Program-made: the position numbers and the translations under genes
From: Candidatus Dormiibacterota bacterium
GTDB lineage: Bacteria; Chloroflexota; Dormibacteria; Aeolococcales; Aeolococcaceae
Length of the DNA stretch: 64,000 nucleotides
Reading direction: 5' to 3'
Assembly (NCBI GenBank): GCA_003162415.1
Contig: PMOL01000005.1
Coordinates: 256,064-320,063, forward strand
Notes under the pieces: generated by a model
The model's database searches: none
Told to the model about the DNA's origin: nothing
The model's input: the letters and a program-made list of their open reading frames with translations, nothing else
Part shown: positions 28,073 to 34,602 of the stretch, in pieces
Position numbering within the stretch: position 1 is the stretch's first letter
Layout: each line of letters opens with the position of its first letter

Positions 28073-29539
28073 ATGACCGAGGTGAGCGCTCCCGCGCCGA
28101 GCACTCCCGCCGCGACCCCGGTGAGCCGGCGGCGGGTCATCTTCGTGGTCACCGCGCTCGCTGCCTTCATGGCATCGCTGGATCTGTCGATCGTCAACGT
28201 GGCGTTTCCCGCGCTCGAACGCTCGTTTCCGAGCGACCCTCGCGCGACGCTCGCGTGGGTGATCACGAGTTACGGCATCGTCTTCGGGTCGCTGCTGGTG
28301 ATCGCGGGCCGCACGGCGGACCGCCTGGGCAGCCGGCGGGTGTTCTTAGCCGGCCTCACCGTCTTCACCGCCGGCTCGGCTCTCTGCGGCCTGGCGCCTT
28401 CGGTGGCGCTGCTCGTGGCTGGCCGGGTGATCCAGGGGTGTGGCGCGGCCGCGCTCCTGCCGGCGTCGCTGAGCCTGCTGCTCGCCGCATTTCCCAGTGA
28501 CCGCCGCTCACAGGTGGTCGCGCTGTGGGGTGGGGTCGGTGCGCTGGCGGTGGCCACCGGGCCGTCGTTCGGCGCGGCGCTGATCACCGTCGGAGGCTGG
28601 CGCTGGGCGTTCTTCGTGAATGTGCCGATCGGGGCGGTCGCGTGGATCGCGGGCCGTCGCGTCCTCGTGCAGTCACGTCCGGCCACGCCCGGAGCGGCGC
28701 CGGACTACCTCGGTGCGATGTTGATCGCGTTGACTCTCTCGGCGCTCGTCCTCGGCATCACCGAAGGGCCGACCTGGGGCTGGTCGACGGCGCCCGTGAT
28801 CGCGTGCTTCGCCGGGGCCGTGGTCGTCGGCACACTTTTTCTCCTCCGGTCTGCACGGCATCCCGAACCGGTCCTCGATCTGACGCTCTTCAGGGCGCGC
28901 TCGTTCAGCGTGGCCAATGCCGCGACCTTTCTCTACGCGATGGGATTCTTCGCGATGCTGCTGGGCAACATCCTGTTCCTCACCAGCGTGTGGCACTACC
29001 CGATTCTCGAGGCGGGTCTCGCAGTGACGCCGGGTCCGCTCGTGGTCGCGCTGGTGTCGGGCCCCGCCGGCCGCATGGCGGCACGGGTGGGATTTCGCAG
29101 GGTGCTGCTTGCCGGTTTCACCGTGTTCCTGGCCGGGCTGGTATGGCTCGCGACTCGCGTCGGACTCCAACACGACTACCTGACGACGTGGTTGCCGGGG
29201 ACGCTGATCATCGGGCTCGGCATCGGGCTCACCTTCCCCGTGCTCAGTGCCGCGGCGGTCTCGAGCCTGCATCCCAACCGGTTCGCCGTCGGCAGCGCGG
29301 TCAACCAGACTGCGCGGCAGATTGGCGGCGCGTTCGGCATCGCCTTGCTCGTGGTCATCCTGGGAACGCCGCACAGCCCAGCAGAAGCACTGGCGCATTT
29401 CCACAACCTGTGGTGGTATGCGGCCGCCGCCACTGCGCTCTCGGGGAGTGCGTGCACGCTGATCAGCCACAGGCCGCGAGTTGTGGTCGAAGCGGCGCCC
29501 GTCGCCGAGGCGGTCACCGAGGCCCGCGCCGCGGTCTAG
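28073..29539 (+). CDS. MFS drug exporter, DHA2 (14-TM) family
   Basis: A 488-residue permease from ATG 28073; the track ORF extends backwards into hxlR. TM1 carries FMASLDLSIVNVAFPALER (motif D1 of DHA2). The loop after TM2 is GRTADRLGSRRVFLAG (motif A), and motif C is seen as GVGALAVATGPSFGAAL with GGWRWAFFVNVPIG after it. About 14 hydrophobic segments are present. It probably exports toxic compounds by proton antiport. Regulation by the divergent HxlR protein is likely. Its TAG stop shares the palindrome CTAG with the stop of the convergent acetate kinase gene. Confidence 0.92.
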   Translation: MTEVSAPAPSTPAATPVSRRRVIFVVTALAAFMASLDLSIVNVAFPALERSFPSDPRATLAWVITSYGIVFGSLLVIAGRTADRLGSRRVFLAGLTVFTAGSALCGLAPSVALLVAGRVIQGCGAAALLPASLSLLLAAFPSDRRSQVVALWGGVGALAVATGPSFGAALITVGGWRWAFFVNVPIGAVAWIAGRRVLVQSRPATPGAAPDYLGAMLIALTLSALVLGITEGPTWGWSTAPVIACFAGAVVVGTLFLLRSARHPEPVLDLTLFRARSFSVANAATFLYAMGFFAMLLGNILFLTSVWHYPILEAGLAVTPGPLVVALVSGPAGRMAARVGFRRVLLAGFTVFLAGLVWLATRVGLQHDYLTTWLPGTLIIGLGIGLTFPVLSAAAVSSLHPNRFAVGSAVNQTARQIGGAFGIALLVVILGTPHSPAEALAHFHNLWWYAAAATALSGSACTLISHRPRVVVEAAPVAEAVTEARAAV

Positions 29540-30609
29540 GCGGCCAGCACCCGTCGCGCCTCACGCGCCATCTCAGCGTCCTCGCGCGCCGTGACCACGA
29601 TCACGGCGGATCCCCGATCCGCGGGCGCGATGACCGCGTCCCCGTCGGCAGGCAGCAGCGACCCCGGAAGTCCGAGAAGGCTGAGCCGAGCGCAGACGCG
29701 CTCGCGAACCAACGCCGAGTGCTCGCCGATCCCCCCGGTGAAGACCAGTGCGTCGAGGCGGTCGAGTGACGTGGCAAGGCCGCCGATCACGCGGCTCAGC
29801 ACGTGGACGTATACATCGAGTGCGAGGACGCAGGACTGGTTGCCGAGCGCCGCCTCGCGCTCGACGTCGCGGATGTCCGACATCTCGCAGAGCCCGAAGA
29901 GCCCGCTGCCGTGCTCGAGCAACCGCGTCATCGCGCCGACGGTGAGCCCGTGGTAATCCTGGAGCCAGAGCAGTGCGCCCGGGTCAATGGTGCCGCTTCG
30001 TGACGCCATCACCGCGCCCTCGAGTGGCGTGAATCCCATGCTCGTGTCGACACTTCGTCCATCGCGCACCGCGCAGGCCGAGACGCCAGAGCCGATATGT
30101 GCAATCACGACGTGGAGCTCATCGACCGGCCGTTGCACCAACTCCGCGCTGCGCCGGCTCGACCATGCATACGACAGGCCGTGGAAACCGTAGCGGCGCA
30201 CTCCCCACGAGCGCCAGTGCGCCGGCACCGCGTAGGTGGTGGCGAACTCGGGGATGTCTGCGTGAAATGCCGTATCGACACAAACGACCTGGGGCCGGTC
30301 GATGCTCGCACGCGCAGCATCGAGCAATGCCAGCGCGGGGGGCACATGCAGCGGTGCGAGCGCGACGGCCGCGTCGAGCTGGCGACGCACCTGGTCGTTG
30401 ACGAGTGCCGCGTGCCGTATTGCCGCACCACCGTGGACGAGCCGGTGGGCGACTGCGTCGACACGTCCCACCCGGGCGGCGAAGTCGCGCAACGCGCTGA
30501 TGGGATCCGCACCGCCGTCAGTCTCCTGCGCGTCCTCGACATTGTCGTTGTCGTCGACCACGCTGAGCTTCAGGCTGCTCGAGCCCGCATTGACCGCGAG
30601 GATTCGCAT
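29536..30609 (-). CDS. ackA: Acetate kinase
   Basis: A 357-residue acetate kinase, shorter than the usual ~400, converting acetyl phosphate plus ADP to acetate plus ATP. Motifs: NAGSSSLKLSV at the N-terminus, HRLVHGG (catalytic Arg), DTAFH, RRYGFHGLSY, DTSMGFTPLEG and GGIGEHSALVRE. Odd: the phosphate-loop His motif reads HIGSG, with Ser replacing the Asn of the standard HLGNG. It is 38 bases downstream of the phosphoketolase gene on the same strand, so its acetyl phosphate most likely comes from that enzyme rather than from phosphotransacetylase, which is not in the window. Confidence 0.93.
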   Translation of the reverse strand: MRILAVNAGSSSLKLSVVDDNDNVEDAQETDGGADPISALRDFAARVGRVDAVAHRLVHGGAAIRHAALVNDQVRRQLDAAVALAPLHVPPALALLDAARASIDRPQVVCVDTAFHADIPEFATTYAVPAHWRSWGVRRYGFHGLSYAWSSRRSAELVQRPVDELHVVIAHIGSGVSACAVRDGRSVDTSMGFTPLEGAVMASRSGTIDPGALLWLQDYHGLTVGAMTRLLEHGSGLFGLCEMSDIRDVEREAALGNQSCVLALDVYVHVLSRVIGGLATSLDRLDALVFTGGIGEHSALVRERVCARLSLLGLPGSLLPADGDAVIAPADRGSAVIVVTAREDAEMAREARRVLAA

Positions 30610-30647: not shown

Positions 30648-33008
30648 TCATCCCGGCCACCGCCACTCGCGGATCTCGGGCATGTCCTCGAAGTGCTCGC
30701 GGACGTAGGCATGATGCCGCCGGAGCTGTGCCTCGCAGAACCGGTGCAGCTCCTCGGCGCCGGCGGGCGTGCGCCGCGCGCGACGGAGGGCCTCCATCAC
30801 CAGGTGGTAGCGGCTCATCTCGTTCAGCACCACCATGTCGAAGGGTGTCGTGGTCGTGCCGTGCTCGTTGTATCCGCGAACATGGAATCGACCGGCGTTC
30901 GGACGTCCGTGCACGACCTGGTGAAACGCTCTCGCATATCCGTGAAACGCCATGACCACGTCGGTCTCATCGGTGAACAGCTCCGTGAAGGCCTCGGGAC
31001 CGAGCGCGTGCGGGTGGAATGGCGCGGGGCTCACCGCCAGCAGGTCGACGACGTTGACCATGCGGAAGCGCAGGTCGGGAACGTGCTCGCGGAGGAGCGC
31101 GGCGGCGGCGAGTGTCTCCAGCGTGGGGATGTCACCGGCGCAGCCGAGCACGACGTCGGGGTCGCCGTCGTCAGCGCTCGACGCCCACGACCACACCGAC
31201 GCACCGCGCGCGCAGTGCTCGATGGCCGCGTCCATCGAGAGGTACTGGAGCTCCGGTTGCTTGTCGATGACAATCAGATTCACATAGCTTCGACTCGTGA
31301 AACAGTGATTCGCCACCGAGAGGAGGCAGTTCGCGTCCGGTGGCAGATAGACGCGGACCACGTCGCCGCTCATGGCCATGACCGTATCGATGAGCCCCGG
31401 TCCCTGGTGGCTGAAACCGTTGTGATCGTTGCGCCAGCAGGTCGAGGTCAGCAGGATGTTCAGCGCGGCGACGGGCTCACGCCACAGGAGTCCACGAGCC
31501 GCCTCGAGCCACTTGGCGTGCTGCACAGTCATCGACGCCGAGACCATCGCGAAAGCCTCGTAGGTCGCGAAGAGGCCGTGCCGCCCGGTGAGCAGGTATC
31601 CCTCGAGCCACCCTTCACAGAGATGCTCCGACAGCACCTCCATCACCCGTCCCGAAGGGCTCACGTGGTCGTCGATGGGAATGGTTGCCTCCTCGAAGCA
31701 TCGGTCCTCGATCTCGAAGACCGCTCCGAGCCGGTTGCTGTTGGTCTCGTCGGGGCAGAAGAGCCGAAAGTTGTCGGCGTTGTCGCGGTAGATGTCGCGG
31801 ATCCACTCACCGAGCCGCCGCGTCGACTCCGCGACTGTGACCCCCGGGTCGACAGCCATCGCGTACTCGGTGAACTCCGGAAGCCGCAGCGGCCTGAGCA
31901 ACTTCCCCCCGTTGGCGTACTCGGTCGCGCCCATGCGCTTGTCGCCGTGGGGCATGAGTGCGGTCACGGCTGCGACGGGTGTGCCCGCGCCGTCGAAGAG
32001 CTCCTCGGGTCGATAGCTGCGCATCCACTCCTCGAGCTGCGCAAGATGGTCCGGGTTGGTCCGCACGTTGTCGAGCGGCACCTGGTGAGCGCGGAAGGTC
32101 CCTTCCACGGGCAGCCCGTCGACGAACTTGGGACCCGTCCACCCCTTGGGTGTGCGCAGCACGATCGCCGGCCATACGGCACGTCCAACGCCGGCTGCGC
32201 CGCGGGCGGCAGCCTGGATCTCTCGGATCCGCTCGTAGCAGCTATCGAGGGTTTGCGCAAACTCCTCGTGCACGCCACGCGGGTCATCGCCGGCGACGAT
32301 ATGGACGTCGTAGCCATGAGCGCTCAGCAATGCGCGAACGTCCTGCTCGCGAGCGCGTCCGAGCACGGTGGGCCCGCTGATCTTGTAGCCGTTGAGCTGA
32401 AGGATCGGTAGCACCGCACCGTCGCGGCGCGGATTGAGAAAGCTCACGCCCTTCCACGACCCCTCCAACGGGCCGGTCTCCGCCTCTCCGTCGCCGACGA
32501 CGCACGCCGCGATCAAGTCGGGGTTGTCAAAAACTGCGCCGAATGCGTGTACCAGCGCATAACCGAGCTCGCCGCCTTCGTGGATGGAGCCCGGGGTGGG
32601 GACGCTCACGTGGCTGGGGATGCCACCCGGGGTCGAGAACTGCCGGACCAGTCGAAGCAGACCGGGCTCGTCGAGCGAGACCGCCGGATAGATCTCGGAA
32701 TATGTCCCTTCCAGGTACACGTTGGCGACGATCGCGGGGCCGCCATGGCCGGGACCGGCGACGTACAACACGTCGCAGTCGCGCTGCTGGATCAGACGAT
32801 TGAGCTGGACGTAGATGAGGCTGAGCGCCGGCGACGTCCCCCAGTGCCCCAGCAGTCGCGGCTTGATGTGTTCCGCCCGCAACGGCTCCCGAAGCAGCGG
32901 ATTCTGCTGGAGATAGATCTGCGCGACCGTCAGGTAGTTCGCCGCCCGCCAGGAGGTGACGAGCGCGTCCAGGTCGACGGTCTCGATCGACGGTGTCAGG
33001 GTGCTCAT
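30648..33008 (-). CDS. xfp: Xylulose-5-phosphate/fructose-6-phosphate phosphoketolase
   Basis: A thiamine-diphosphate enzyme of 786 residues that splits xylulose 5-phosphate (often also fructose 6-phosphate) to acetyl phosphate plus an aldose phosphate. Motifs: LLGHWGTSPALSLIYVQLN, YVAGPGHGGPAIVANVYLEGTY, GSIHEGGELGYAL, the diphosphate loop VVGDGEAETGPLEGSWKG, and in the second half NDHNGFSHQGPG and GYARAFHQVVHGRPN. Starts GTG 33011 or ATG 33008; TACGAT seven bases before the ATG favours ATG and a leaderless message. With ackA it forms an ATP-yielding bypass of lower glycolysis. Confidence 0.96.
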   Translation of the reverse strand: MSTLTPSIETVDLDALVTSWRAANYLTVAQIYLQQNPLLREPLRAEHIKPRLLGHWGTSPALSLIYVQLNRLIQQRDCDVLYVAGPGHGGPAIVANVYLEGTYSEIYPAVSLDEPGLLRLVRQFSTPGGIPSHVSVPTPGSIHEGGELGYALVHAFGAVFDNPDLIAACVVGDGEAETGPLEGSWKGVSFLNPRRDGAVLPILQLNGYKISGPTVLGRAREQDVRALLSAHGYDVHIVAGDDPRGVHEEFAQTLDSCYERIREIQAAARGAAGVGRAVWPAIVLRTPKGWTGPKFVDGLPVEGTFRAHQVPLDNVRTNPDHLAQLEEWMRSYRPEELFDGAGTPVAAVTALMPHGDKRMGATEYANGGKLLRPLRLPEFTEYAMAVDPGVTVAESTRRLGEWIRDIYRDNADNFRLFCPDETNSNRLGAVFEIEDRCFEEATIPIDDHVSPSGRVMEVLSEHLCEGWLEGYLLTGRHGLFATYEAFAMVSASMTVQHAKWLEAARGLLWREPVAALNILLTSTCWRNDHNGFSHQGPGLIDTVMAMSGDVVRVYLPPDANCLLSVANHCFTSRSYVNLIVIDKQPELQYLSMDAAIEHCARGASVWSWASSADDGDPDVVLGCAGDIPTLETLAAAALLREHVPDLRFRMVNVVDLLAVSPAPFHPHALGPEAFTELFTDETDVVMAFHGYARAFHQVVHGRPNAGRFHVRGYNEHGTTTTPFDMVVLNEMSRYHLVMEALRRARRTPAGAEELHRFCEAQLRRHHAYVREHFEDMPEIREWRWPG

Positions 33009-33015
33009 CACCTAG

Positions 33016-33059: not shown

Positions 33060-33620
33060 TCAGTCGGTGTCGCGAAACGTCAGGGAGTACCCGCGACCCG
33101 GCTTGTTGACGAGATCGCAGGGGATGGCAAGGCGGACCAGGATCTTCCTGAGGCGCAGCACGTAGTTCCGGACCTCCTCCGGGAAGAGCGCCGAGTCGGA
33201 CCACGCCAGGCTGGTGATCTGCGACGCCGTGTAGTACCGATGGGGGTGATCCAGCAGGAACTGGAGGAGCTCGAACTCTCGAGTGGTCAGGACGGCCTCG
33301 TGGCCCTTGTGGCGGATGACGCGTCCGTCGGGATCCAGCCACAGGCCCTGCAGCTGCCACACGCGCTGATACCAGAGGTCGAGGCGGGCGTAGTAGCCGT
33401 CCATCTGCGCTTCGATGAAGCCGATGTCCTCGTCGGCTGCCGCCTGCGCCACGGGATGCAACTTGGGCAGTTCGCGTTTCACTCGATCGAGCAAGCCCAG
33501 CTTGAAACGGATCAGGTCGTCGTAGATGCTCATCCAGTGGCGCGCGTCTTCCCAGTGTTCGGTCTGGATGTCCTCACCCTCGAGCGGGCGGGCCTGCGGT
33601 GCGGCGCGGCCGGTATCCAC
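33060..33620 (-). CDS. Helical-domain plus OmpR-type winged-helix regulator
   Basis: A 186-residue protein from GTG 33620. Residues about 20-85 are an all-helical domain (HWEDARHWMSIYDDLIRFKLGLLDRV, then YYARLDLWYQRVWQL). Residues about 93-186 are an OmpR/PhoB-type winged helix without a receiver domain (AVLTTREFELLQFLLDHPHRYYTASQI, EEVRNYVLRLRKIL, VNKPGRGYSL). The helical part aligns with almost the whole of the divergent gene at 33682, so the pair shares a domain. TATAGT seven bases before the GTG suggests a leaderless start. It lies 50 bases from xfp, which it might regulate (inference). Confidence 0.8.
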   Translation of the reverse strand: MDTGRAAPQARPLEGEDIQTEHWEDARHWMSIYDDLIRFKLGLLDRVKRELPKLHPVAQAAADEDIGFIEAQMDGYYARLDLWYQRVWQLQGLWLDPDGRVIRHKGHEAVLTTREFELLQFLLDHPHRYYTASQITSLAWSDSALFPEEVRNYVLRLRKILVRLAIPCDLVNKPGRGYSLTFRDTD

Positions 33621-33627
33621 GGCCGTG

Positions 33628-33633
33628 ACTATA
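33628..33633 (-). promoter_or_regulatory. Candidate -10 hexamer (TATAGT) of the winged-helix gene
   Basis: Minus-strand TATAGT, seven bases before GTG 33620, close to the -10 consensus TATAAT. Confidence 0.45.
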
Positions 33634-33681
33634 CGAAAGCTGTTGCTGATCTTCTTACGCGTCGTGGTGTATCAGAACATC

Positions 33682-34038
33682 ATGAACCAGAACGCGGCGC
33701 GTGAGCGCCCCGACATCATCGCTGCCATCAGAGGCGGGGACGACTCCCTGGGCATGGAAGGGGAGGCCGATCTCGCCACCGCAACGCTGGAACAGGCGTT
33801 GTTCTGGAAAAACATCTACACAGAGATACTCGCCATGGAGGAATCGGTTCTCGAGCGCATCCAGCAGCTGATGGCCGATCAGTCGCCCCAGGCGCGACAG
33901 GAGGTTGCTCTCACCAACGTGCCGGTCGTGGTCGCCCAGGCAGAACGGTTTCGATCGCGCCTGGGCTTCTGGGAGTCCGCGTGCCGGCGCATTGGTGCAA
34001 GGGGCGTTGGTTCGGGGATTGCGCCGGTACTGCCCTGA
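33682..34038 (+). CDS. Stand-alone copy of the helical domain of the divergent regulator
   Basis: A 118-residue protein from ATG 33682; the track ORF begins earlier, inside the divergent gene. The body LEQALFWKNIYTEILAMEESVLERIQQL ... AQAERFRSRLGFWESACRRI aligns with the helical domain of the 33060-33620 regulator. Shared positions are E-x-A-x2-W-x2-IY, L-x-R-[VI], P-x-A, AQ and RL-x2-W, about one residue in five. It lacks the DNA-binding part and has no membrane segment. The two genes are divergent, with only 61 bases between starts. It may bind the regulator and act as partner or antagonist. No known family recognised. Confidence 0.7.
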   Translation: MNQNAARERPDIIAAIRGGDDSLGMEGEADLATATLEQALFWKNIYTEILAMEESVLERIQQLMADQSPQARQEVALTNVPVVVAQAERFRSRLGFWESACRRIGARGVGSGIAPVLP

Positions 34039-34161: not shown

Positions 34162-34602
34162 ATGACCGATATGCGAACTCAGGATCAGTCCGTCACGAAC
34201 TACGGACCGAACCGGACGGGCGTCAATACCACCACCGAAACGGTCGCCGATCCGTCCACGGGCACGAGCATGCGCTGGAGCTCGACCAGCGTGTGGTCGG
34301 GGAGATCTCCGGGCGTCGAGTTCGTCTGGCTCATCGCAGGAATCGTGGTCGCCTTTCTCGCGCTCGACTTCATCTTCCATGCAGCCGGAGCGAACGACGT
34401 CGGATTCGCCGCGTTCGTCTTCTCCGTCGGCAAGGCCCTGGCCTCGCCGTTCGCCGGCATCTTCAAGACGGCGACCGCCGCGCGCGGGAACCTGATCGTA
34501 TGGGCCGACGTCCTGGCGATGGTGATCTACGTGCTTGCGGCAGCCGTGATCGTGAAGGTTGTCACTCTGATCTCGGCGCGCAGCGCGACGACAGCGAACT
34601 AG
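34162..34602 (+). CDS. Small membrane protein, YggT-like (tentative)
   Basis: A 146-residue protein with aaaggagc nine bases before ATG 34162; the track start at 34105 is upstream of that site. A polar Thr/Asn-rich N-terminus of about 50 residues precedes two membrane helices, EFVWLIAGIVVAFLALDFIF and WADVLAMVIYVLAAAVIVKVVTL. Between them lies KALASPFAGIFKTATAARGN. The SPFAGIF element followed by a long helix recalls YggT-type proteins, but the match is weak. It is followed 30 bases later by another small membrane gene. Confidence 0.65.
   Translation: MTDMRTQDQSVTNYGPNRTGVNTTTETVADPSTGTSMRWSSTSVWSGRSPGVEFVWLIAGIVVAFLALDFIFHAAGANDVGFAAFVFSVGKALASPFAGIFKTATAARGNLIVWADVLAMVIYVLAAAVIVKVVTLISARSATTAN

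Follow-up and report, generated by a model that had tools for sequence, protein, structure and literature searches.

The question raised by this locus is whether two divergent genes in the 64,000-nucleotide stretch of Candidatus Dormiibacterota DNA analysed here (the window) encode a transcriptional regulator together with a stripped-down relative that acts back on it. Regulators antagonised by such a relative are known from few bacterial systems. A sequence-only reading of the locus had proposed that a winged-helix protein and a short divergent protein share a helical domain and form a two-protein switch, the short protein titrating the regulator. In this study we describe a complete and testable candidate circuit, namely regulator, partner, operator and targets, derived from sequence alone; its novelty resides in the hairpin domain, in the box and in the regulon, and not in the logic of the circuit. 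Dormibacteria are known mainly from metagenome-assembled genomes, and such a circuit offers a handle on a possible envelope or freezing-stress response in soil and permafrost.

The regulator, P0001 (186 aa, positions 33060..33620 on the reverse strand, GTG start), carries an OmpR/PhoB-type winged helix in residues 106-179 (33084..33305, reverse strand), which matches PF00486 (Trans_reg_C) above the Pfam cut-off at E 5.3e-10; the solved structures nearest to it include PhoB, AdeR and SaeR. Nothing known in Pfam was matched by its N-terminal half. The AlphaFold2 model (pLDDT 86.3) shows there a helical hairpin alone, built of two long helices (residues 22-52 and 55-89), and the Foldseek matches of this model were to the winged helix only. 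Because the receiver domain is absent (Response_reg was not found by Pfam), P0001, judged by its predicted domains, does not strictly qualify as a response regulator. The hairpin domain takes up about residues 12-89 (33354..33587, reverse strand).

The short protein, P0002 (118 aa, 33682..34038 on the forward strand, with a start codon kept across orthologues), contains the hairpin domain at about residues 25-103 (33754..33990, forward strand), has no DNA-binding domain and gave no Pfam match. Its model (pLDDT 86.8) is likewise a hairpin, with helices 36-64 and 69-78/80-110 and an extra helix 10-17, and found no Foldseek match at E 0.001. Residues 9-20 form a motif, RPDIIAAIRGGD (33706..33741, forward strand), that does not occur in regulators; the corresponding stretch near the N-terminus, RPDxxAAxRGG[DN], is invariant among the short proteins, whose hairpin surface is also strongly conserved. 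The two start codons are separated by 61 bases, and this spacing, both open reading frames and the motifs quoted earlier (EDARHWMSIY/EQALFWKNIY, LDRV/LERI and RLDLW/RLGFW in P0001/P0002) are all as the sequence-only reading gave them.

Weak matches are frequent among helical hairpins and the profiles available here are shallow, which would favour regarding the likeness as a chance similarity of two helical proteins. Against this, the local alignment of P0001 with P0002 scores 88, and the best of 5000 shuffles reached only 52; in whole-genome searches P0001 retrieves P0002 at E 9.6e-4, P0002 retrieves P0001 at 4.7e-4, and orthologous regulators are retrieved by P0002 at E 7.7e-9. Comparison of the regulator profile with the short profile, both of low diversity (Neff 1.9 and 2.8), gives 96.8% probability and E 2.2e-10 over 87 columns, and the LxGE and WxxxY motifs are common to the family. 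We conclude from these comparisons that the similarity goes beyond chance, the probability of a chance likeness being negligible. The profile alignment and the agreement of the predicted folds, both named earlier as checks, uphold the claim of a common helical domain in two copies, one with and one without a DNA-binding domain, PF00486 being present in P0001 only.

A hairpin family was gathered by iterated searches and includes regulators, short proteins and other stand-alone copies. Its pattern is LxGE(D/N)xxTxxxEDAxHWxx(V/I)YxELLxFK...RxxxRLxFWxxR, and positions E4, W17, Y21 and W71 of the domain are invariant in 26 diverse members. Searches of Pfam, NCBIfam and PDB with the family returned no convincing match, only scattered weak ones of single members, in keeping with the earlier statement that the domain has no named family; the hairpin thus defines a family that is unnamed in the libraries searched. 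A TFIIS-like PDB match of the short profile (E 0.005) was set aside as isolated. The domain occurs in 35 of 400 genomes sampled from the phylum, all 35 belonging to the class Dormibacteria, in which stand-alone hairpin proteins are common with no regulator alongside. Some of these copies adjoin short MerR-type proteins (L004 1483-2610 and L005 1540-2299, also L128, L131 and L133); the neighbours match PF13411, are about 106 aa long, have no effector domain and in several cases overlap the hairpin gene on the same strand. It is possible that such a couple is a second kind of regulator-hairpin module.

Regarding its inheritance, the pair occurs three times in the source genome, on two contigs and always divergent. 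Among 35 linked pairs, a count which includes a few more distant hairpin proteins as partners or partners up to 1.4 kb off, 15 are divergent, 10 have the regulator followed by the short gene, 6 the reverse order, and 4 are convergent. The expectation of a pair conserved and divergent elsewhere therefore holds for conservation and fails for orientation, and divergent order as an essential feature was rejected on these four gene orders. In a tree of 72 domains, which has few columns and many unresolved forks, the short proteins form one clade (support 83/92; a single clade in 86% of bootstrap trees) and the regulators of the same lineages another, with the distant pairs of L032 and L034 sister to the rest in both. 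Regulator and short-protein distances correlate over 27 pairs (Mantel r 0.83, reached in 0 of 2000 permutations), partly by common descent. On this tree the pair appears as an old module with separate, mirrored clades, and a recent truncation of the regulator as origin of the short protein was rejected, the short clade being single, old and separate. The description of P0002 as a DNA-binding-free version of the regulator accordingly stands for the domain and falls for simple truncation, as P0002 belongs to an old branch with its own N-terminal motif and stand-alone copies are common. A fragment at G000:C6:243903-243995 (L012), 84% identical to residues 17-47 of P0002, is apparently a decayed copy of a short gene.

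A short partner is missing from the vicinity of some regulators (L056, L058, L073, L076, L077 and L081), so that it would not always be needed in cis. A few hundred bases after some regulators whose short partner is absent or distant, a further winged-helix protein, more distantly related at about 33% identity, was seen at L073, L076, L078, L081 and L084 (e.g. L076 4961-5317). Regulators and one short gene 76-88% identical to the Dormibacterota ones also occur on PMLV01 contigs (L079, L083, L088) of a record titled Acidimicrobiaceae bacterium, which is likely a mislabelled or mixed bin.

As for the genomic context, phosphoketolase (30648-33011) and acetate kinase (29536-30609), both confirmed by Pfam, adjoin the pair as had been noticed. 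This neighbourhood is true of the present locus and does not extend to a conserved context: only the closest species (L047, L048) have the two genes beside the pair, with phosphoketolase at a contig end in L060, and on that ground both genes were rejected as conserved partners or targets. More widely conserved as a neighbour is the next gene after the short one, which encodes a small membrane protein (34162..34602, forward strand); it is a probable co-transcribed target, followed in the probable operon by a Transgly_assoc membrane protein of GlsB/YeaQ type (PF04226; 34633..34941, forward strand).

Alignment of the intergenic regions revealed a conserved block which is always ahead of the short gene, in every gene order. 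It is a 17-bp box with the consensus TTRCTGANYTTNTTRYG, reading TTRCTGANYTTNTTAYG and in one genus ending in TTGCG; the copy in the window, the candidate operator TTGCTGATCTTCTTACG (33643..33659, forward strand), ends 22 nt ahead of the P0002 start codon. The box is found upstream of 39 of 41 non-redundant short genes, near-matches being present at the other two, and its end is 22 or 23 nt from the start codon in 37 cases; a same-strand box was found upstream of none of 29 regulator genes. Beyond the box, at a distance of 10 bp, lies a -10-like element, predicted for P0002 as TATCAG (33670..33675, forward strand); 37 of 41 aligned sites retain the A at its second position. No evident Shine-Dalgarno sequence precedes the short gene. 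Because of this, and of the -10-like element 10 bp past the box, the short-gene mRNA is probably leaderless, with the box over the -35 region. In the divergent order the regulator's own promoter, too, has the box in its -35 region; the -10-like element predicted for that promoter, TATAGT (33628..33633, reverse strand), is conserved in the genus alignment.

Exact box sites are expected by chance at about 0.003 per genome. The source genome has four, one before each of its three short genes; the fourth lies beside the second pair, upstream of an ORF of 56 codons that encodes a hydrophobic stretch at the C-terminus. Boxes before ORFs of 53-57 codons were seen at G000:C20:203998-204014 (L102) and at L108, L109, L110, L119 and L122; these ORFs have an Arg-rich middle and a C-terminal hydrophobic stretch and would be easily overlooked by gene callers. 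Among 61 relatives, exact sites occur in 9 genomes and the reversed pattern in none, and in a second set box sites occur in 15 of 28 genomes. The box is present in 23 of 25 genomes having a regulator of at least 60% identity vs 1 of 54 genomes lacking one (Fisher p 1.4e-16, a value that overstates independence since the genomes are related and the co-occurrence is partly shared ancestry). As to the two regulator-bearing genomes lacking an exact box, no short gene was seen near the regulator of G018, and the coordinates in G217 match the locus L061, whose box has one mismatch. In G020 the regulator has no short gene nearby, yet a box stands before the next gene.

The box also marks other genes. 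YggT-like membrane genes placed as separate units carry their own box at nine loci (L064, L072, L075, L085, L090, L189, L194, L200 and L203); their products match PF02325 below the cut-off (E 0.0045), and the small membrane protein of the window is a distant relative of them (two-sequence comparison, E 3e-7). Also preceded by a box are genes of secreted ice-binding-like proteins (PF11999, with E values as low as 3.9e-56), of receiver-domain proteins, of an alcohol dehydrogenase and of tiny hydrophobic proteins. For an independent test, PF11999 genes were collected by protein family, and the sequence upstream of each was then scored for the box: nine of the genes, in regulator-bearing genomes, have it with one mismatch or none, a level not attained by any shuffle, and none of five scored from genomes without a close regulator has it. 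Two further exact sites before PF11999-type genes, in G374, were known prior to this test. The only PF11999 gene of the source genome has a one-mismatch box 96 nt before its start. Because many other PF11999 genes scored in regulator genomes have no box upstream, the predicted targets are a subset of these families. Gene content and sampling sites, many Candidatus Dormibacterota records coming from palsa permafrost, suggest an envelope or freezing theme for the regulon. At L202 (G290:C160) a box at 2128 on the reverse strand precedes an ORF resembling another hairpin-domain protein, DMRHWIRVYRELR, which is possibly a further partner.

These observations lead us to propose that P0001 uses its winged helix to bind the 17-bp box in the promoters of a regulon made up of the short gene with its membrane-protein neighbours, of the YggT-like membrane genes that stand apart, and of some of the secreted ice-binding-like genes. 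The hairpin, standing where OmpR/PhoB proteins have their receiver, would be a dimerisation or input part; the box promoter would make P0002, and P0002 would pair with P0001 through the common hairpin and so feed back. If the feedback is negative, mixed complexes with one DNA-binding half would hold the box less well. Such mixed-hairpin feedback would be the simplest account, because the partner, itself expressed from a box promoter, has the only other domain of the regulator in common with it; a feedback switch gains plausibility from the box ahead of the short gene, as that box is the regulator's candidate target. We put the chances of this two-gene feedback module on a new, class-restricted hairpin, with the regulator binding the box and the partner feeding back, at about even. 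As regards its parts, P0001 is quite probably the box-binding protein, and it fairly likely activates rather than represses, activation being the natural reading for a PhoB-type winged helix because the pho box usually replaces the -35 region in Escherichia coli (PMC4971064). That the two hairpins pair is somewhat probable. An inhibitory effect of P0002 falls a little short of an even chance and is still the sign we rate likeliest; titration alone would leave its invariant N-terminal motif unexplained.

That motif, the strongly conserved hairpin surface and the want of a receiver or other known input domain in P0001 would also suit a short protein that is a required co-regulator or signal-sensing subunit, aiding P0001 in binding or activation, so that the feedback would be positive; the operons shared by related stand-alone hairpins and short MerR proteins point the same way. 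However, regulators exist with no short gene nearby, that of G020 still having a box before the next gene, and a domain stripped of its DNA-binding part suits a competitor equally, hence we hold this reading to be rather unlikely. More improbable in our judgement is that the short protein is a target and nothing more, acting as an effector in its own right, e.g. at the membrane with its YggT-like neighbour, its hairpin reflecting old family membership and no mutual binding. Stand-alone hairpins do occur widely in the class with no regulator beside them, and the short proteins and regulators are separate old branches, but the linkage to the regulator survives rearrangement and the short gene is the most constant box target, present in every arrangement.

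An alternative sigma factor, for instance, or some other factor might instead read the box, with P0001 acting elsewhere: the box overlaps the -35 region and a conserved -10-like element follows, so that it could belong to a promoter of a single sigma class. Nevertheless the box co-occurs with the regulator, its 17 conserved positions exceed the need of a -35 element, and P0001 is the linked DNA-binding protein, no sigma gene having been seen beside the pair, which leaves this explanation a small probability. Returning to the feedback module, a broader reading would have a private regulatory interaction domain of Dormibacteria, fused to winged helices, encoded beside MerR-type proteins or standing as lone microproteins, drive box switches over an envelope or freezing-stress regulon including YggT/GlsB-type and ice-binding-like proteins; taken as a whole, we regard it as doubtful.

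Among known systems, SinR/SinI of Bacillus subtilis offers a precedent for this kind of circuit: SinI is a homologue of the oligomerisation domain of SinR, both proteins contribute a pair of helices, and their heterodimer fails to bind DNA (PMC3163267). Common to that system and the present pair are a DNA-binding regulator with a small homologue of its non-DNA-binding domain that lacks the DNA-binding part, a two-helix interaction domain (here from predicted models) and neighbouring genes. The differences are that SinR has a phage-repressor-like HTH at its N-terminus and P0001 a winged helix at its C-terminus, that sinI is under Spo0A control whereas the short gene has the module's own box, and that P0002 has an additional conserved N-terminal motif; heterodimerisation is proven for SinR/SinI and proposed for P0001/P0002. 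The short, regulator and family profiles gave no Pfam or PDB match indicating homology to SinI/SinR, and by analogy the proposed pair would work like the SinI/SinR type and is not a member of that family.

With response regulators of the PhoB/OmpR family P0001 shares the PF00486 DNA-binding domain and perhaps the use of a box that stands in for the -35 element, but they have a receiver domain with a phospho-acceptor Asp where P0001 has the unnamed hairpin. The box differs from the PhoB box in sequence, and no clear 11-bp direct repeat is evident in its consensus; by position in the predicted promoter, at -35 and 10 bp from the conserved -10-like A, it resembles the pho box. H-NST is reported to be a truncated relative without DNA-binding domain which counteracts full-length H-NS (PMC3897749). 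H-NS is a nucleoid protein and H-NST an acquired modulator, whereas the two genes described here are inherited together as a module of the chromosome and have a sequence-specific box.
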